A stretch of DNA of 21,553 nucleotides from a virus. The position numbers and the translations under genes are program-made. Each line of letters starts with the position of its first letter. The first letter of the stretch is position 1. Of the stretch, positions 4,838-21,553 are shown in pieces. The stretch lies in the IMG/VR virus record IMGVR_UViG_3300036767_000297, positions 1-21,553 of that record. The stretch is one strand, 5' to 3'. The notes under the pieces are model-generated. The model had not been told where the DNA came from. It saw only the letters and a list, made by a program, of their open reading frames with translations, and did no database searches.

Positions 4838-4960
4838 ATGCGAAACGTGAATTTTGGTATATTTGAAGAAGCTACAGCGGGGCCTACAATAAATACTAGT
4901 AGTAGATACTCAAATGGCATGCTGTGTTCTACAGCATACTCGAAAGGGGAAATCCAATGA
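4838..4960 (+). CDS. Small protein, 40 aa, with capsid-targeting-like N-terminus
   Basis: A 40-codon frame that begins eight bases after the -10 box at 4825-4830 and ends by ATGA overlap with the next gene. The N-terminus MRNVNFGIFEEATAGP resembles the T4 internal-protein capsid-targeting sequence MKTYQEFIAEA, with a possible prohead protease site (I-F-E or F-E-E followed by A). There is no good ribosome site. If the sigma70 promoter is used the message is nearly leaderless, and the late-type box at 4888-4895 falls inside the gene. It may instead be a coupling leader for the next gene. Function unknown. Confidence 0.45.
   Translation: MRNVNFGIFEEATAGPTINTSSRYSNGMLCSTAYSKGEIQ
4873..4885. repeat. 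13-base direct repeat, copy 2
   Basis: Second copy of TACAGCGGGGCCT, inside the 40-residue gene, where it encodes TAGP in the same frame as at 4180-4192. Spacing between copies is 693 bases. Confidence 0.6.
4888..4895 (+). promoter_or_regulatory. Possible late promoter box
   Basis: AATAAATA followed by CT, one change from TATAAATA, about 60 bases before the ATG at 4957. It would give late expression of the 4957 and 5175 genes. Confidence 0.4.
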
Positions 4961-5174: not shown

Positions 5175-5414
5175 ATGAAAATTAAAGACATCGACGAGAC
5201 CTTAATTGACGAAGCTCAAGCTACAGCAAAACTATGTAGATCTTCTAGACCAGATTCATCACTTGGTGCAAGTGCTTTATCAAGTTGCAAAGCTCAAGGA
5301 TTAAGAACTAGAAGTGGTGGGAAGAGTCATAAGGTAGGCAAACATAGGGTCACAGTTGGTGGCAAAAAAATTAAAGGAAAAAAATATGGCGGACCGCTCC
5401 CTGACTGGAGTTGA
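5175..5414 (+). CDS. Very basic small protein, possible internal head protein, 79 aa
   Basis: A 79-residue protein with an acidic N-terminus MKIKDIDETLIDEAQ and a strongly basic remainder (GLRTRSGGKSHKVGKHRV, KKIKGKKYGG). Two cysteines stand at about residues 21 and 38 within CRSSRPDSSLGASALSSC. The N-terminus contains I-D-E followed by A (residues 11-14), which fits the T4 prohead protease consensus (L/I)-x-E. Removal of that piece would leave a basic DNA-binding-like peptide, as with T4 internal proteins. This is inference; the family is unknown to me. It is placed after a late-type box and directly before the AlgH-like gene. Confidence 0.65.
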   Translation: MKIKDIDETLIDEAQATAKLCRSSRPDSSLGASALSSCKAQGLRTRSGGKSHKVGKHRVTVGGKKIKGKKYGGPLPDWS

Positions 5415-6961: not shown

Positions 6962-7618
6962 GTGAAATTTTTTATTGATACAGCTAATATAGACAAAATT
7001 TTAGAACTAATTCCTACCGGTATGGTAGATGGAGTAACTACTAATCCTTCGCTTATATATAAGAATGGCGATGATATGGCTAAAACTATTAAGGGCATTT
7101 GTAATATACAGAATGGGCCTGTTAGTGCTGAAGTAACAGCAATAGATCATGCTCATATGGTTCAAGAAGGGCAATATCTAGCAAGTTTGGCAGACAATGT
7201 TGTTGTTAAAGTTCCATTAACAGTTGATGGCTTAATTGCTTGTAAGACGTTAAGACATTTAGGTATTGAAGTAAACGTTACATTATGTTTTAGTGTAGCC
7301 CAAGCCTTGTTAGCCGCAAAGGCTGGAGCAACTTATATCTCACCCTTTGTCGGACGCTTAGATGATATTGGGGAAGATGGTATGAATCTTATTGCTGATA
7401 TTGTTAAAATGTATTGTGTACAAGGATTTAAAACTGAAGTGTTAGTAGCAAGTGTTAGAAGTGTAAAACATGTCGAACTAGCGGCTGTACTAGGTGCTCA
7501 AGTAGTAACTATACCGCCAGACGTTGTCTATAAGATGTATGAACACATATTAACTAAAAAAGGATTAGATAGCTTTATGGCAGACTGGGCAAGTACAGGG
7601 CAAACTATTTTGAAGTAG
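6962..7618 (+). CDS. talC: Transaldolase, TalC/FSA type
   Basis: A 218-residue transaldolase of the short class (fructose-6-phosphate aldolase/TalC), which moves a dihydroxyacetone unit between sugar phosphates in the pentose phosphate pathway. Signatures in order: MKFFIDTANIDKI, VDGVTTNPSLI (about 22-32), SAEVTA, NVVVKVPLTVDGL with the Schiff-base Lys83, VNVTLCFSVAQALLAAKAGA and YISPFVGRLDD. The length is usual for the family. The start is a GTG placed six bases after AAGGAG; the ATG at 6958 is in another frame and closes after six codons. TalC is a well-known auxiliary gene of marine T4-like phages, thought to push host carbon toward nucleotide precursors and NADPH. Its stop overlaps the converging 7605-8108 gene by 14 bases. 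Confidence 0.95.
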   Translation: MKFFIDTANIDKILELIPTGMVDGVTTNPSLIYKNGDDMAKTIKGICNIQNGPVSAEVTAIDHAHMVQEGQYLASLADNVVVKVPLTVDGLIACKTLRHLGIEVNVTLCFSVAQALLAAKAGATYISPFVGRLDDIGEDGMNLIADIVKMYCVQGFKTEVLVASVRSVKHVELAAVLGAQVVTIPPDVVYKMYEHILTKKGLDSFMADWASTGQTILK

Positions 7619-11559: not shown

Positions 11560-12765
11560 TTAGAGAAAAGCCTTTCTATGTGACTTTGTCTCTACTTTAA
11601 CTAAAGCATCTACTAAATTGTCCATCATAGCATCTGTATGATGCGGAGTTGGAGCAAACCGTAAACGTTCAGTACCTACCTCTACTGTAGGATAGTTAAT
11701 AGCCTGACAATAAATTCCAAAATCATTGATTAAGGCATCGCTCATTGCTTTACAGCGTTTTGCGTCTCCTACGAAGACCGGTACTATATGTGTTTCATTT
11801 TCAAAAATTTGTAAACCATTCGCTCTTAATAGGTCCTTTAAATGACTAGCACGTTCCTGATGTTGTACTCGTAGTTGATTGTTGTCCTGCAAATATTTTA
11901 CACTTGCTAAAGCACCAGCACAAGTGACTGGTGATAAAGAAGTAGTAAAAATAAAACCTGAGGCGACCGAACGGATAGCGTCTAAGACAACTGCCTTCCC
12001 TGCTATATATCCACCCTGTACACCAAAGGCTTTACCTAACGTACCATTTAATATATCAACTCTGTCCTGTGATCCTTGCTTTGCTGACCAACCAGCACCT
12101 GTTTCACCATACAGGCCAACGGCGTGGACTTCATCAAGATATGTAACGGCATTATATTTTTCAGCTAAGTTGAGAATGTCATCTAATTTACTGACATATC
12201 CATCCATGCTATACACAGACTCAAAAACAACACAAGGTGTTCCTTTGACGTCTTTCAGTATACTTTCTAACTGCTCTAGATCATTGTGCTTAAAAATATG
12301 TTTCTTAGCACCACTGTTTCTGATTCCTTCAATTAATGAAGCGTGATTTTTACTATCACTTACAAATTCAATGTCGGGAATGATTCGTTTAAGAGCAATC
12401 AATGTCCATTCGTTGGCAACATAAGCTGAAGTATAAAGCAGAGCTGACTCTTTGCTATGCAGAGAAGCTAACTCATGCTCTAATGCAACATGATAATGAG
12501 ATGTTCCAGCAATATTTCGTGTGCCACCTGCACCCGCACCTGTCTGGTTAAGGGCAGTTTTCATGGCATCTAAAACAACTGGATGTTGTCCCATACCTAG
12601 GTAATCATTTGAACACCAATTTACAATATCCTTAATATTATATTTGCCATACCATATGGCGTTAGGATATTGTCCTCTGGTACGGAGAATATCGTTAAAG
12701 ACACGGTAATTGCCGTTATCTTTAAGTTCTTGGATCTTCTCCTGAAATGGTGTTAGGTCTATCAT
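11560..12765 (-). CDS. hemA: 5-aminolevulinate synthase (ALAS)
   Basis: A 401-residue pyridoxal-phosphate enzyme joining glycine and succinyl-CoA to 5-aminolevulinate, the first committed step of heme synthesis in alphaproteobacteria. Features: YRVFNDI near Arg21, [13 protein letters not shown] (50-62), [19 protein letters not shown] (78-96) with Thr82 and Asn84, [12 protein letters not shown] (209-220, Asp211 on the cofactor ring), [17 protein letters not shown] (240-256) with Lys245 forming the aldimine, FTTSLSP, and [12 protein letters not shown] near the end. Thr82/Asn84, the TLGKAFG context and full length favour ALAS over the related KBL and BioF enzymes. All catalytic positions that I can check are kept. 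There is no ribosome site; the start overlaps the upstream 73-residue gene by 44 bases, and a perfect late box ends nine bases before it. Confidence 0.93.
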
Positions 12766-14207: not shown

Positions 14208-15188
14208 ATGGAATTAACTTATATGATCGTAGGATTTATTCTTGCGGCATACTCGGTTGTTGCTAATGATAGTGTACAAACATTAGGTCCTTGGATAGCA
14301 TCTAACTCAGATCATCCAGGTAACACAGAGCCATCATTTAATTGGCAAACACTTTGGCTATCAGCATCAGCAGTTTTAATATTTACATTATGGTATGGGT
14401 GGTATATTAACGGGGGCGACATATCATTTGGTAGACTAAACAAAATACCTTTCCAAGAAGTACAATGGTACCATGCAACTGCTCCACTTGTACTTCTATT
14501 ACTAACACGAGTTGGCGTACCTGTATCAACAAGTTTCTTAGTCCTGTCTGCATTTGCTAGTACATTTGTATTAGAAAAGATGTTAGTTAAATCTATTATA
14601 GGATATGCCTTAGCGGCAATAGTTGCTTATGCTATTTGGATGGTAGTTGAACGTGTTATAGATGAGAAAGCAGATAAGGTACCTGAAACACATAAAGTTT
14701 ATTGGCGTGTTGGTAGTTGGATCACTACAGCATTCTTATGGTACACTTGGTTATCACACGACATGGCCAATATTGCTGTATTCCTTCCTAGAGTATTATC
14801 CGTTGAATGGACGCTTTTTGTATCTGTTGTGTTTATAGTATTCTTAGGATACACGTTTTATGAACGTGGAGGAAAGATTCAACACGTTGTTTTAGAAAAG
14901 ACTGGCACTAGGTATGTGCGTTCAGCAACATTAATTAATGTAGTATATGCATTTATATTAATGTTCTTTAGAGAGTATAATGATATTCCTATGAGTACTA
15001 CTTGGGTCTTTGTTGGATTGTTATGTGGAAGAGAACTTGCAATATCAACACTTATGGAAAACTATAAGTTTAAGTATGTGTTTCCTATAATAGGCCGTGA
15101 CTTCTTAAAAATGATGTTAGGACTAATTGTGTCAGTAGGAATTGTATTGTCAATACACTATGTTATTATACCTAACGGGTTACACTAA
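14208..15188 (+). CDS. PiT-like (phosphate permease-like) membrane protein
   Basis: A 326-residue protein with about eight to ten membrane helices. It shows the two inverted halves of PiT/PHO4 phosphate permeases. Each has an ND-type motif (VANDSVQTLGPWIASN at 18-33; LSHDMANIAVFLP at 182-194, compare 'HGANDVANAxGPLA') and a P-x-S-T motif (GVPVSTSFLVLSAFAS at 103-118; IPMSTTWVFVGLLCGRE at 260-276, compare 'PVSTTHxxxGxxxG'). The asparagine of the second ND is replaced by His (HD), and the protein is shorter than usual permeases. Uptake of phosphate or a related anion is therefore inferred. It sits third in the operon from 13493, and its 3' end overlaps the converging SGNH gene by 17 bases. Confidence 0.68.
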   Translation: MELTYMIVGFILAAYSVVANDSVQTLGPWIASNSDHPGNTEPSFNWQTLWLSASAVLIFTLWYGWYINGGDISFGRLNKIPFQEVQWYHATAPLVLLLLTRVGVPVSTSFLVLSAFASTFVLEKMLVKSIIGYALAAIVAYAIWMVVERVIDEKADKVPETHKVYWRVGSWITTAFLWYTWLSHDMANIAVFLPRVLSVEWTLFVSVVFIVFLGYTFYERGGKIQHVVLEKTGTRYVRSATLINVVYAFILMFFREYNDIPMSTTWVFVGLLCGRELAISTLMENYKFKYVFPIIGRDFLKMMLGLIVSVGIVLSIHYVIIPNGLH

Positions 15189-16823: not shown

Positions 16824-16831
16824 CTAAATAC
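16824..16831 (+). promoter_or_regulatory. Late promoter box for the 16850-20193 operon
   Basis: CTAAATAC, 18 bases before the ATG at 16850. The same octamer occurs before 20281. It faces the lipase promoter in the divergent gap. Confidence 0.5.
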
Positions 16832-16849: not shown

Positions 16850-17116
16850 ATGAAAAGAACCACTAGATCTATACTCGAAGAACTAAACAGTATTCACCGT
16901 ACGACTGATAACGAAGCATTAATACAGTCAACAGGGAATAACTTAATTGAAAGTTCGATTAATTTATTAAACAGAATAACTGATAGTTATGACGCAGATA
17001 CAGCCGCAGAATTAGAAAGACGTTTTATAAACAGTATTAGAAGTGGTGATCCTCGTAAATTTAAACGTGGCGTTGATAAAATAGTTGAAGCAAGGAAAAC
17101 AAATGATTCTCAATGA
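16850..17116 (+). CDS. Small helical protein, possible capsid-packed protein, 88 aa
   Basis: An 88-residue, probably all-helical protein: MKRTTRSILEELNSIHRTTDN, then NLIESSINLLNRITDSYD, and a basic end (DPRKFKRGVDKIVEARK). The N-terminus contains L-E-E and I-L-E, which fit the (L/I)-x-E prohead protease consensus near residue 10. First gene of a late four-gene operon; its end overlaps the nucleotidyltransferase start by 14 bases and supplies that gene's AAGGA ribosome site. Function unknown. Confidence 0.68.
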   Translation: MKRTTRSILEELNSIHRTTDNEALIQSTGNNLIESSINLLNRITDSYDADTAAELERRFINSIRSGDPRKFKRGVDKIVEARKTNDSQ

Positions 17117-17807
17117 AGGCGGTAACATATTCAAAAATGCTGAGGGCGAACCAGCTACAATCCGTATTAATAAAGCAGATGTAAAGCCTACATTAGGTTG
17201 GCTTGAAAAGATCACTGGATTAGATCATAAAGGCCATATGCTTGGCAGTACTGGTGTTAAAGACACTAGTGGTGATTTAGATGTTGCTATTGAGAAAGAT
17301 AAAGTTAGTAAAGACGATCTAGTAGGAAAATTACAAGCATGGGTAGTTAAAAATCATCCTGATGACGAGCCTAAACAATGGATTCGAAAGTCTGGTATTT
17401 CAGTACATTTTAAAACACCTATTAGAGGTAATGAGAAAAACGGATTTGTACAAACAGATTTAATGTTTGGTGATCAGAAGTTTATGAAATTTGCTTTAGG
17501 TGGCATGGACGCAAAAAGTAACTTTAAAGGCCAACACCGTATGATTATGATTGCCTCGTTAGCAAAAGCACTAGGATATAAGTGGAGCCCCTCAAATGGA
17601 TTAGTTGATAGAATAAGCAACGAACCTTTGGAAGGTGCAAAGGATCCAAAGTTTATTGCAAAGACTTTAATGGGTCCAACTGCAACTCCGCAAGACTTAC
17701 AAAGTGTAGAATCAATTAATGCTAAAATTAAAGCAGACCCTAATTACGAAAACTTAGTTAAAGATGCCAAAGACTGGTTTGAAAAAGATGGACTAGAGCT
17801 ACCATAA
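17103..17807 (+). CDS. Polymerase-beta-type nucleotidyltransferase
   Basis: A 234-residue protein with the nucleotidyltransferase signature. HMLGSTGVKDTSGDLDVAIE (45-64) holds Gly48-Ser49 and the metal-binding pair Asp58 and Asp60, and FVQTDLMFG (115-123) holds the third carboxylate, Asp119. This is the arrangement of the polymerase beta superfamily, which adds nucleotides to RNA, DNA, proteins or drugs; the substrate cannot be read here. The ATG at 17103 is preferred over a TTG at 17085 because AAGGA lies directly upstream. The first residues MILNEGG contain L-N-E|G, a possible prohead protease site. The stop overlaps the ATG of the ligase-like gene by one base, so the two are coupled. Confidence 0.8.
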   Translation: MILNEGGNIFKNAEGEPATIRINKADVKPTLGWLEKITGLDHKGHMLGSTGVKDTSGDLDVAIEKDKVSKDDLVGKLQAWVVKNHPDDEPKQWIRKSGISVHFKTPIRGNEKNGFVQTDLMFGDQKFMKFALGGMDAKSNFKGQHRMIMIASLAKALGYKWSPSNGLVDRISNEPLEGAKDPKFIAKTLMGPTATPQDLQSVESINAKIKADPNYENLVKDAKDWFEKDGLELP

Positions 17808-19309
17808 TGAGATTTTTTGAATTTAAACAAATTGTAAAAGAAATGGAAGCACGTATCCAACATGCAGAAGATATCATCTTCTGGGAAGGAAGTGCTGGAG
17901 CCAAACGTGCTTTGCAATCTTTAGCTAACATGGCCAAAGGTGGACACAAAGATGTAACAATCAAATGGGATGGATCACCTGCTGTAATATTTGGTCGTGA
18001 TGCAGATGGCAAGTTTGTCTTTACAGACAAGTCAGGCTTTAGTGCAAAAGGATATGATGGTAAGTCACAAAGTGGCGATGACTTACAGGCCATGTTACTT
18101 GGTAGAGGTAAAGGTGGCGAGAAGTCAGACAGTTATAAAGCATTTGCAGGCAATATGAAAGATGTATTTGACGAATTTGAAAAAGCTGTACCTAAAAAAC
18201 ACAAAGGCTATTTCAAAGGAGACATGTTATACTTTAATACTCCTGATACAATAGGTGAAACGCTGTCCTTTAAACCTAATACAGTAACATATACAGTACA
18301 AAAAGATAGTGACATAGGTAAACAAATAGCAAGAAGTAAAACTGGTGTAGTTATTCATAGAGTTGTAGATCAAAACGGTAACGAAGGTCCTTTAGGTCAA
18401 ACACCTCTATTTGAAGGTAAAGAAGTATTAGTATTACCACCAGTGACTGTAGTTGATGCTCCAAACGTAGACATGAGTAGCATTAAAGAAGTAAGTGGAA
18501 TTGTAAGTAACAATGCTAACGAGATTGACAGTTTATTAAACAAAGAAACATTAGCCGCAATGAAGGTTAGTGACTTCTCTCAAATACTTTATACATATAC
18601 TAATAGTAAAGTTGATACAGGATTAGATAAACTAGGTAAAGACTTTGTACAATGGCTATCAGGTAGCAAAGTAAGTAAAAATAAACAAGCAAAAATTATT
18701 GAATATGTAAAAACAAATATTAAGGCTTTTAATGCATTATGGCAAACAGTAAACGGTATCATGAGAGTTAAAGATGATATCATTAATCAATTAGAAAATC
18801 AACCTGCTGATGTTAAAGCATCAATAGGTGGTAAGCCTGGAGGAGAAGGTTATGTATTAGCTAATCCAAAAGGAGATATAAAACTAGTTAATCGTGCAGG
18901 CTTTAGTGCGGCTAACAGAGCAGTAAAACGAGAGGGGACTAATATGAGAGCAAGTGACTTTACAGATACCGACTTTATGCGTAGAGGTATTGATCCAGCA
19001 GACGTTGACGATAACGACGATCCAGGATTTAAACAAGATATGATGTTTAACCAATTAGGCAAAATATTAGATTCACAATCTAATCCAAAGCCGTTGAATA
19101 CCGTTACAACTGATGATGGTAAAAAAATGAAAGTTGATGTAGCACAAGCTAAAACATTACGTATGATGGCAACTACTGATAGAGTTAAGCCAGCTATACG
19201 TTTTGAGTTTACTAAAGACATTCAAAAATCAGCTGGATTAGAACAATTTCTTGCAGTTAAAGATCCAAAAGAGATGATTAATATCTTTGCTGACAAGTAT
19301 ATGAAGTAG
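17807..19309 (+). CDS. DNA/RNA-ligase-like covalent nucleotidyltransferase domain protein, 500 aa
   Basis: A 500-residue protein carrying, in order, motifs of the ligase/capping-enzyme superfamily. VTIKWDGSPAVIFGRD (50-65) has the K-x-D-G nucleotide-accepting Lys53, YFKGDMLYF (135-143) fits motif III, GGEGYVLANPKGD (345-357) fits motif IV (Glu347-Gly348), and DIKLVNR (357-363) fits motif V with Lys359. A block of about 200 residues separates III from IV, far more than in standard ligases, so this would be an unusual member. An alternative is that the match is fold-level only. It starts MRFFEFKQIVKEMEA, similar to capsid-targeting N-termini but with no exact (L/I)-x-E. Overlap with the nucleotidyltransferase gene suggests a joint role in end modification or repair. 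Confidence 0.62.
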   Translation: MRFFEFKQIVKEMEARIQHAEDIIFWEGSAGAKRALQSLANMAKGGHKDVTIKWDGSPAVIFGRDADGKFVFTDKSGFSAKGYDGKSQSGDDLQAMLLGRGKGGEKSDSYKAFAGNMKDVFDEFEKAVPKKHKGYFKGDMLYFNTPDTIGETLSFKPNTVTYTVQKDSDIGKQIARSKTGVVIHRVVDQNGNEGPLGQTPLFEGKEVLVLPPVTVVDAPNVDMSSIKEVSGIVSNNANEIDSLLNKETLAAMKVSDFSQILYTYTNSKVDTGLDKLGKDFVQWLSGSKVSKNKQAKIIEYVKTNIKAFNALWQTVNGIMRVKDDIINQLENQPADVKASIGGKPGGEGYVLANPKGDIKLVNRAGFSAANRAVKREGTNMRASDFTDTDFMRRGIDPADVDDNDDPGFKQDMMFNQLGKILDSQSNPKPLNTVTTDDGKKMKVDVAQAKTLRMMATTDRVKPAIRFEFTKDIQKSAGLEQFLAVKDPKEMINIFADKYMK

Positions 19310-19314
19310 GCGAT

Positions 19315-20193
19315 ATGGAACTCAAATTCTTAGACGAGATATATGAAGCGAGAATGACTCGCAATAGTACTGACCAAAAGAAGTTATCATATACTGACTG
19401 TGGTGAAAGGCTATACTTATCGCTATTGATTCTTGAGTTACTAAGGCAATACCCAGGTTCTTCTAAAGGTATTGCTAATGGGTATGCGAAAAAGACTGTA
19501 GACAATCAAAACTATAAGCACTTTCGTATGCATGGAACTGATTTATATAACTTAATATATTTTGTAGCTGGACCAGAAGAAGCAGTTAATAAATTAAAAG
19601 ATCCAGCGGCCGCATTGGCTTTGAGAAAACGTATATCATTTCCACTCTTAGCATTAAATGGATACCTTCATAAAATAGCTTCCGGTGGTACTGTTGGTAC
19701 TAATTCAGAATTGTTTATGCGTATAGAAAATATGTTACGCATAAACTCCGAGTATAAATCAATTAGACGGTACCTTGTTAATTACGGTACTGCTAGTATA
19801 CGTGACAAAAAGTCAGTAACAACAAAACTATTATTTGCCGCTAGAGCAAAATTAAGAAATAGTGATTTAATTTCATACTTAGAAGAACTATCAACTAACA
19901 GAGACTTAGAAACTTCGATGGTTAAGGATCACGAACCTACAATTAGTATTCCTGACCAAACACCTACATCAAATAAAGACTTAATGTTTTATAGATACAT
20001 TGTAGGTCCACGTAACTTAGTAGGTACTAAAAAGTTTTTAGACATGGCAAAGGCAGGCAAAAGTGTTCCGTCTCCTTTTATTGCTTCTTACTTTCCGGCT
20101 ATTAAATTACTGGATGATATTGTAAAAGCTGGCCCAGGATACATCACAATGCTTAAAGCACTCCAAAAACGAGCATTACAGAGCAAAAAGTAA
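19315..20193 (+). CDS. Conserved phage protein of unknown function, 292 aa
   Basis: A 292-residue helical, basic protein, five bases after the ligase-like gene. The N-terminus MELKFLDEIYEARM has an exact I-Y-E|A site and resembles the start of T4 Alt (MELITELFDE), a head-packed protein. The body is helical with Arg/Lys-rich segments (LRKRISF, IRRYLVNYG, LFAARAKLRNSD). A last stretch reads SYFPAIKLLDDIVKAGPGYITML. No enzyme motif found. Since it is the last gene of the operon and shares the N-terminal pattern, it may be packed and injected like its neighbours, which is inference. Confidence 0.72.
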   Translation: MELKFLDEIYEARMTRNSTDQKKLSYTDCGERLYLSLLILELLRQYPGSSKGIANGYAKKTVDNQNYKHFRMHGTDLYNLIYFVAGPEEAVNKLKDPAAALALRKRISFPLLALNGYLHKIASGGTVGTNSELFMRIENMLRINSEYKSIRRYLVNYGTASIRDKKSVTTKLLFAARAKLRNSDLISYLEELSTNRDLETSMVKDHEPTISIPDQTPTSNKDLMFYRYIVGPRNLVGTKKFLDMAKAGKSVPSPFIASYFPAIKLLDDIVKAGPGYITMLKALQKRALQSKK

Positions 20194-20280: not shown

Positions 20281-20619
20281 ATGGCTGGAGTAGCAAGAAC
20301 AAACGGATTAGGTCACGCACACGAGACCTTATATTCAACAGCAAACTTAGGTTTTTACGTAATCGACGGTGGCGCATCATTAGCCGCTGAAGGTGGAATT
20401 GGTAAAGCCTTAGAAGCATTAGCACAAGCAATTAACCCAATCGCAATGAACAGCGAAGGAACAGCTGGATTAGTTAACGTAGTAGTTGACGATTCACAAT
20501 GGGACGCGGCGGCACTACAAGTAGCAGTACGTAACTTAGGTACAGCAGTAGGATCTGGAAATTATGATGCCTCAGGTGCAACTGCAACTGCTGGTGGACA
20601 ATTTATAGTATCTGCGTAA
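20281..20619 (+). CDS. Small Ala/Gly-rich protein, probably structural, 112 aa
   Basis: A 112-residue protein without charged clusters, very rich in Ala and Gly: MAGVARTNGLGHAHETLYST, then GGASLAAEGGIGKALEALAQAI and a beta-like end (TAVGSGNYDASGATATAGG, then FIVSA). A strong AGGAG ribosome site, its own late box and the best terminator in the window flank it. It is thus a single-gene unit built for high late expression, as expected for an abundant virion component. I do not recognise the family. Confidence 0.75.
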   Translation: MAGVARTNGLGHAHETLYSTANLGFYVIDGGASLAAEGGIGKALEALAQAINPIAMNSEGTAGLVNVVVDDSQWDAAALQVAVRNLGTAVGSGNYDASGATATAGGQFIVSA

Positions 20620-21523: not shown

Positions 21524-21553
21524 ATGTTGCTACGTGAGATAACTCAATCGCTT
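21524..21553 (+). CDS. Partial gene at the right edge (5' end)
   Basis: The first ten codons, MLLREITQSL, of a rightward gene cut by the window edge. It has the same late-box spacing as 5175 and an L-R-E|I site at residues 3-5, like the other proteins with capsid-targeting-like starts. The identity cannot be judged. Confidence 0.45.
   Translation, partial: MLLREITQSL

Follow-up and report, generated by a model that had tools for sequence, protein, structure and literature searches.

Short T4-type leaders on a ligase-like and nucleotidyltransferase-like gene cassette point to probable tagged head cargo in a marine phage and its relatives

The capsid-targeting propeptides of phage T4 are 10–20 residues long. 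In IPI, IPII, IPIII and Alt, all cut by gp21, the capsid-targeting sequence is a short N-terminal stretch running from M-K/R through an acidic-hydrophobic pair to x-E, followed mostly by a small residue, and it is found on late proteins, small basic cargo included. To bring a protein into the T4 head, the ten N-terminal residues of IPIII are enough, positions 4 and 7 acting in targeting and positions 8 and 10 in processing; tagged foreign proteins are packaged as well, and Alt and many of the internal proteins enter the host (PMC9026906). Alt is cut at ITE-6 (PMC5694885). The ejection proteins of phiKZ and SPN3US likewise reside in the head and have propeptides that a prohead protease removes, but these propeptides are longer and the cleavage motifs are A/S-x-E (PMC5694885). 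In the cyanophage S-SM1, T4-GC190, a putative cytidylyltransferase, has been detected in purified virions (PMC3037559), and in jumbo phages RNA ligases come together with RlaP nucleotidyltransferases, pairs thought to mend tRNA that host nucleases have cut (PMC7824862). Here we compare with these systems a group of genes on a 21,553-base IMG/VR virus fragment (IMGVR_UViG_3300036767_000297; the whole stretch is called the window), for which an earlier note had proposed T4-like leaders, with cleavage after (L/I)-x-E, on a set of late proteins that includes enzymes.

Our analysis makes it likely that this marine phage and its relatives load leader-tagged, cleaved cargo into their heads. The tagged set would comprise a nucleotidyltransferase-like (NTase-like) protein (gene 17103), a ligase-like DUF6267 protein (gene 17807), a helical partner (gene 19315) and small basic proteins (gene 21524 and neighbours in relatives), with genes 5175 and 16850 as possible members. 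By analogy with T4, the leader would dock the protein in the prohead core, an S77 protease would remove it, and the cargo would be ejected into the host with the DNA. T4-type capsid targeting would thus probably extend to cargo unlike that of T4, a conserved cassette in which an NTase-like protein accompanies a ligase-like one; also unlike T4, P3 may be Val and the NTase-like leader can be as short as 5 residues. S-SM1 T4-GC190 is similar in being a leader-bearing, nucleotidyltransferase-type protein whose gene lies directly beside DUF6267 and which occurs in virions (PMC3037559); it differs in belonging to another enzyme family (FGRFNPP motif) and in that the S-SM1 DUF6267 protein has no leader. 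The jumbo-phage sets of Rnl1/Rnl2 and RlaP also have an NTase-like enzyme next to one of ligase type (PMC7824862), whereas the genes described here give no significant match to T4 nrdC.11 and none to the Rnl Pfam models, and have leaders that suggest packaging. At the nucleotide level the window had no megablast match among 50,697 phage records.

The tagged-cargo reading is supported in part by the turnover of leaders around a retained site. Homologues were compared at 97 loci, some from the same contig and with the window's own locus included; sequences with no ATG near the aligned start, shorter than 70% of the query or more than about 88% identical to one already kept were dropped before counting, and each identical leader was counted once. 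Neither the sequence nor the length of the N-terminal stretch is constant across the homologues, but [LIV]-x-E stays next to the conserved domain. It is present in 17/17 distinct leaders of DUF6267 (within-leader shuffles: mean 7.8, maximum 14), in 20/20 of gene 19315 (mean 11.2, maximum 17) and in 10/10 of the NTase-like protein (mean 3.0, maximum 8); each comparison used 2000 shuffles, which serve as a guide and not as a probability, because the sequences share descent. The 500-aa DUF6267 protein (17807–19309, plus strand), with ligase-type motifs, begins in the window with MRFFEFKQIVKE↓ME-ARIQHAED (leader 17807–17842; the arrow marks the predicted cut), and homologues begin MRFNELINE↓AE-ARIQ, MRFFEFKQLNKQPLTE↓A-ARIQ, MRFFEFKQTTNTSILNE↓G-ARID, MKVIELFEDVKFTLNE↓GAE-ARIQ and MRAFEFLTE↓AKKVGREF. 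The leader proposed earlier for this protein holds, but its cut, EME↓A, gives way on homologue evidence to IVKE↓ME, since homologues retain IVKE↓MEARIQ; P3 is Val in the window and Leu or Ile in several homologues. Gene 19315 (19315–20193, plus strand, 292 aa) begins MELKFLDEIYE↓ARM (leader 19315–19347), with MQNQQTTNNLDFLHGLFE↓ARM and MMDFIKEIHE↓ARM elsewhere, and the 234-aa NTase-like protein (17103–17807, plus strand) begins MILNE↓GG (leader 17103–17117), with MSGNELLNE↓GG, MIHPVHRVLNE↓GG and MTNKIFE↓GG among its homologues. For these two proteins the homologues support the sites first proposed, IYE↓A and LNE↓GG. The residues ahead of the domain number 11–21 in DUF6267, 9–23 in gene 19315 and 5–12 in the NTase-like protein, whose leader is shorter than that of T4.

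The same reading gains from leaderless homologues, which start near the predicted cut. The NTase-like proteins of Atu_ph07 and Phosso begin MGGRAF and MGGAAF, respectively, and the frame upstream of either gene, scanned to the preceding stop, contains no leader. The leaderless SCTP-2 homologue of gene 19315 begins roughly one residue into the predicted mature protein; those of Atu_ph07 and Phosso read ...QLNE↓SNV and ...KLEE↓SSV. Among 11 isolated phages, six (S-PM2, P-TIM40, P-HM2, S-WAM1, S-SZBM1 and Vibrio 2.275.O) have a leaderless DUF6267 protein that starts 4–5 residues before the ARIQ position, as assigned by eye; C48C1 (MMLDFKNFITE↓), DLP6 (MMKFTQFLAE↓) and Melnitz (MLTLINFSKYITE↓) have a leader, and S-SM1 and EniLVp02 fall into neither class. 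In the predicted models, residues 1–15 of DUF6267 and 1–14 of the gene 19315 product have a pLDDT below 50.

A third line of support is the re-use of the leader on unrelated proteins. The pattern M[KR]x(1-3)[ED]-hydrophobic-x-E, applied to genes called with a home-made program that places starts heuristically, opens a mean of 19.35 (16–22) of 330 families, as compared with 1.24 (maximum 6) in 1000 column shuffles, 0.44 (maximum 4) in row shuffles and 2/1202 at internal Met residues. The pattern was then frozen and applied to a hold-out of 452 called proteins, of which it matched 11 (T4 3/97, Melnitz 3/163, S-SM1 0/62, Atu_ph07 2/46, Phosso 2/56, SCTP-2 1/28), against a row-shuffle mean of 0.66 (maximum 5, 1000 shuffles) and 1/1873 internal Met residues; the matches include T4 ipII and ipIII and one probable false match, uvsY. 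A looser, T4-derived pattern was enriched too (41/452; shuffle mean 9.98, maximum 21; internal Met 43/1873), yet was rejected as too loose to stand as sole criterion. Two related small basic proteins have unlike leaders, MLLREITQPLDE↓KQIWGRRGKDVVRKFRC and MRIVDIVPEVLTE↓GVVAIWGRNKGKVVRKFRC. What is beyond chance is the [LIV]xE kept beside the domain despite leader divergence, together with the longer T4-like leader on unrelated families.

Two further observations concern proteins with this kind of start. The opening MRF[FY]EFK is common to the window's gene 17807 and to genes at L105 5222–6811, L098 16939–17325 and L100 6877–7353; the proteins (500, 530, 128 and 158 aa, respectively) each lie in a similarity cluster of their own, which is what a re-used leader would give. 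The leader shape is also found on lysozyme-type and peptidoglycan-binding proteins (L091 5339–6112, L096 3472–4185, L155 13920–14939), cell-wall enzymes with leaders such as MKIRELVNE↓S, MKINEILLE↓Q and MRYYEFIKE↓A, hinting that these enzymes, too, may be packaged in heads.

Relatives with complete genomes have the machinery that such a leader would need. An S77 protease and gp23 were found in 10/10 complete phage records examined, T4 included, and also in Melnitz, and [LI]-x-E lies at or near the position of the T4 maturation site in 10/11 major capsid proteins (cut positions assigned by eye; Atu_ph07 unplaced). Support also comes from enzymes tied to virions. S-SM1 T4-GC190, the virion protein, starts MKKFSAFLNE↓AERS, the shape of T4 ipIII (MKTYQEFIAE↓A). 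In Melnitz (EXVC044M) a cytidylyltransferase-type protein starts MKKFSEIIE↓ARGD, and the DUF6267 start reads ...FSKYITE↓DKGG. Jumbo phages, too, have the four-gene cassette, all of its parts being kept in Atu_ph07 and Phosso; in Atu_ph07 these are gp064 (19315-like), gp065 (NTase-like), gp066 (ligase-like) and gp068 (16850-like). If RefSeq and published numbering agree, all four lie among CDS 31–76, a block rich in virion-protein genes: mass spectrometry of partially purified virions detected 29 of its products (PMC6102473). The ligase-like proteins of Atu_ph07 and Phosso have EKLDGS and EGVV in common, but their similarity to DUF6267 is not significant, so that different ligase-type families may fill this slot of the cassette; that of Atu_ph07 gives a sub-threshold match to RNA_ligase (E 0.002, 18.7 bits against a threshold of 27) and that of Phosso none.

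Beyond the Atu_ph07 cassette (L118 21588–32696), 11 consecutive genes open with L-x-E leaders. Ten of these leaders begin M[KR]W, as in MKWHQLTE↓AV and MRWEQLTE↓SL, and a YRGM segment is common to the array. Judged by these starts, the eleven products look like head-packaged effectors. From the YRGM segment we presumed a likeness to ADP-ribosyltransferases, which Pfam did not confirm: two array members searched there gave no such match and one weak acetyltransferase match, and in PHROG the same two members matched function-unknown families and, weakly, acetyltransferase-type ones only.

With regard to the enzymes, the gene 17807 product matches Pfam DUF6267 (PF19782) at 127.5 bits, against a gathering cut-off of 27 (E 1.1e-36). 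The motifs KWDG (53–56), GGEGYV (345–350) and K359-L-V are invariant in 18/18 homologues, and we take a KxDG motif I with later E-G and K motifs to be the signature of ligases and covalent nucleotidyltransferases. No Rnl Pfam model matched the protein. Its predicted model (mean pLDDT 81.2) is closest to 6vt3, a Naegleria RNA ligase (Z 6.4, rmsd 4.5 Å, 177 residues), followed by T4 Rnl1 (Z 5.6) and trypanosome REL1 (Z 5.5), and among the matches listed 49/50 are titled nucleic-acid ligases or complexes containing one. All Z scores are below 8 and weak alone; combined with the ligase motifs, they make it likely that the DUF6267 protein is a ligase-like, covalent nucleotidyltransferase. In the relatives G015, G010 and G014 the C-terminal part of DUF6267 is a separate gene (MKASDFDSDF..., 135 aa), whereas the window has the fused form. 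The 17103 product has GS at 48–49, D58, D60 and D119, of which G48, D58, D60 and D119 are invariant in 19/19 homologues; G-S...D-x-D...D is the motif of pol-beta-type nucleotidyltransferases. Family searches of Pfam, PHROG and PDB sequences gave no match for it (13 weak Pfam matches, none to a nucleotidyltransferase), and because the motifs lack support from any family search we call the protein NTase-like only. Against T4 nrdC.11, which we assume to be an RlaP member, hhalign gave E 0.27 over 17 columns with a single sequence, which is not significant. Searching PDB sequences with three profiles gave a sole match at E ≤1, an unrelated viral glycoprotein (E 0.65). The gene 19315 product is predicted to be all-helical; it matched no Pfam or PHROG family, and Foldseek of its model gave a best E of 1.4.

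The cassette opens with gene 16850 (16850–17116, plus strand), which encodes an 88-aa protein matching phrog_11854, 'virion structural protein' (E 2.6e-15). The four genes run on the plus strand from 16850 to 20193; two junctions are overlaps, of 14 bases and 1 base, and the third is a gap of 5. At 16824–16831 (plus strand), 26 bases upstream, lies CTAAATAC, which we take to resemble a T4 late promoter; [ACT]TAAATA occurs within 60 bases upstream in 43/49 distinct upstreams of the 16850 gene family, compared with 374/1689 other genes. The block probably constitutes a late operon devoted to head cargo. Whether the 16850 protein is itself tagged is less certain: E11-L12 of the proposed leader, MKRTTRSILEE↓L (16850–16882), is invariant in 18/18 homologues and likewise in Atu_ph07 and Phosso, but the residues around it are conserved too, so that a leader is indistinguishable from the start of a domain. 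A tblastn search of 16850 against phages found nothing at E 0.001, whereas phrog_11854 does connect it with the Phosso gene. Gene 21524 (21524–21553, plus strand) starts MLLREITQSL... and is truncated by the window end. The gene is real, but the cut first proposed, LRE↓I, is replaced on homologue evidence by LDE↓K, the likelier site because a relative 97% identical here reads MLLREITQPLDE↓KQIWGRRG... (117 aa, basic). Gene 5175 (5175–5414, plus strand, 79 aa) starts MKIKDIDETLIDE↓A (leader 5175–5213) and is a plausible leader-bearing protein: M[KR]x(1-3)[ED]-hydrophobic opens 8/8 members of its cluster, although [LIV]xE is not kept throughout (L068 has FISQE↓AG). Sequences and coordinates given earlier are correct for 16850, 17103, 17807, 19315, 5175 and 21524; the open reading frame at 4838 (MRNVNFGIFEE↓A) is probably not a gene, its frame being shifted by indels in a 97%-identical relative and no homologue appearing in the 97 loci. 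The gene after 19315 (window 20281–20619, G001 49040–49429) is very unlike in an otherwise near-identical relative (MAGVARTNGLGHAHETLYS... and MAGVTKVNPLVATYTGEIRN...), and the slot therefore seems to be often swapped. Elsewhere in the window, 6962–7618, 11560–12765 and 14208–15188 are presumably host-type metabolic genes, resembling a transaldolase, an aminolevulinate-synthase-type enzyme and a phosphate permease.

Several results weigh against tagged cargo. The bare motif is not enriched near the N-terminus, the test that the earlier note had proposed: (L/I)-x-E with E at residues 4–14 occurs in 6/31 called window genes and in 92/504 genes of six related contigs, which is background, and two of the six window genes, 2819 and 11560, are absent from the list first drawn up. 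Across 199 families, residues 4–15 do not exceed later bins either for [LI]xE (31/199, then 28/199, 22/199, 23/193 and 27/180) or for [LI]xE[AGS] (5/199, then 7/199, 6/199, 3/193 and 5/180). The note had named a motif frequency no higher than elsewhere as an outcome against its own proposal, and, read strictly, that is the outcome. Moreover, the leader pattern was picked on the same 330-family data; only 4/118 families of at least three members match it by their longest member; and the frozen pattern misses T4 ipI, alt and GC190 of S-SM1, a phage in which it matches nothing. Only 3/11 isolated phages have a leader on DUF6267, and the P-HM2 cytidyltransferase (T4-GC190) has none. The S77 protease was not found on 49 IMG/VR fragments, nor gp23 on 18, the window lineage, represented by fragments only, being included in both. 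In RefSeq, the label 'virion structural protein' is given to gp068 of Atu_ph07 only, gp064–gp066 being hypothetical, and the virion preparation from this phage was a partially purified one, with 29 taken here as a count for the block as a whole (PMC6102473). Overall, comparison supports T4-type leaders on the NTase-like, ligase-like and small basic proteins, while the frequency argument, open reading frame 4838 and two of the cut sites fall away and 16850 stays uncertain.

What the tagged proteins might do is a matter for more caution. One tentative and speculative possibility is that heads are pre-loaded with an injected RNA-repair kit of a ligase-type enzyme, a nucleotide-adding enzyme and their helical partner; early in infection the two enzymes would repair RNA, such as tRNA that host anticodon nucleases or similar defences had cleaved, and, being packaged, could act when a translation block prevents new synthesis. 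With it we put forward, just as tentatively, that gain or loss of a short leader shifts the same enzyme between production in the cell and delivery by the virion. Alternatively, the leaders may target and be cut, but the proteins serve head assembly or the packaged DNA, as core proteins or as enzymes of DNA ends and nicks, and not the next host. We regard this as doubtful, if a serious contender: in T4, gp21 cuts the core proteins gp22, gp67 and gp68 (PMC5694885), the label of the 16850 family is virion structural, and a ligase-type fold is almost as good a fit to DNA ligases as to RNA ligases; however, the catalytic motifs are invariant, cyanophages keep DUF6267 without a leader, which speaks for a function inside the cell, and T4 cargo with leaders of this kind is for the most part ejected (PMC9026906). 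That the packaged pair instead modifies host RNA or another host target, in take-over or attack, seems unlikely to us: the Atu_ph07 cassette adjoins the array whose eleven products have leaders and a presumed likeness to ADP-ribosyltransferases, and T4 injects Alt, which modifies a host protein (PMC9026906), but a ligase-type enzyme with an NTase-like one fits the jumbo-phage repair pairs (PMC7824862), and no toxin family was matched in the Pfam and PHROG searches. Finally, that the N-terminal Glu motifs are ordinary sequence, on proteins made and used in the infected cell, would fit the background frequency of the bare motif and the domain-like conservation of the entire 16850 segment, but is very improbable given leader turnover around a kept site, homologues that lack a leader and begin close to the cut, re-use on unrelated families and the S-SM1 virion enzyme.

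DUF6267 is named nowhere in the literature searched, and no packaged RNA ligase was met there, in papers covered in part, which is no proof of absence. If the tagged-cargo reading is true, the leader would be a sequence-only readout of head cargo in uncultivated T4-like and jumbo phages, the leader-bearing families here including the ligase/NTase pair along with lysozyme-type and small basic proteins. The DUF6267 enzyme, with a leader in some phages and without one in others, offers a natural comparison. Repair-type enzymes would then reach the host before any phage translation, which bears on how phages may defeat tRNA-cleaving defences.

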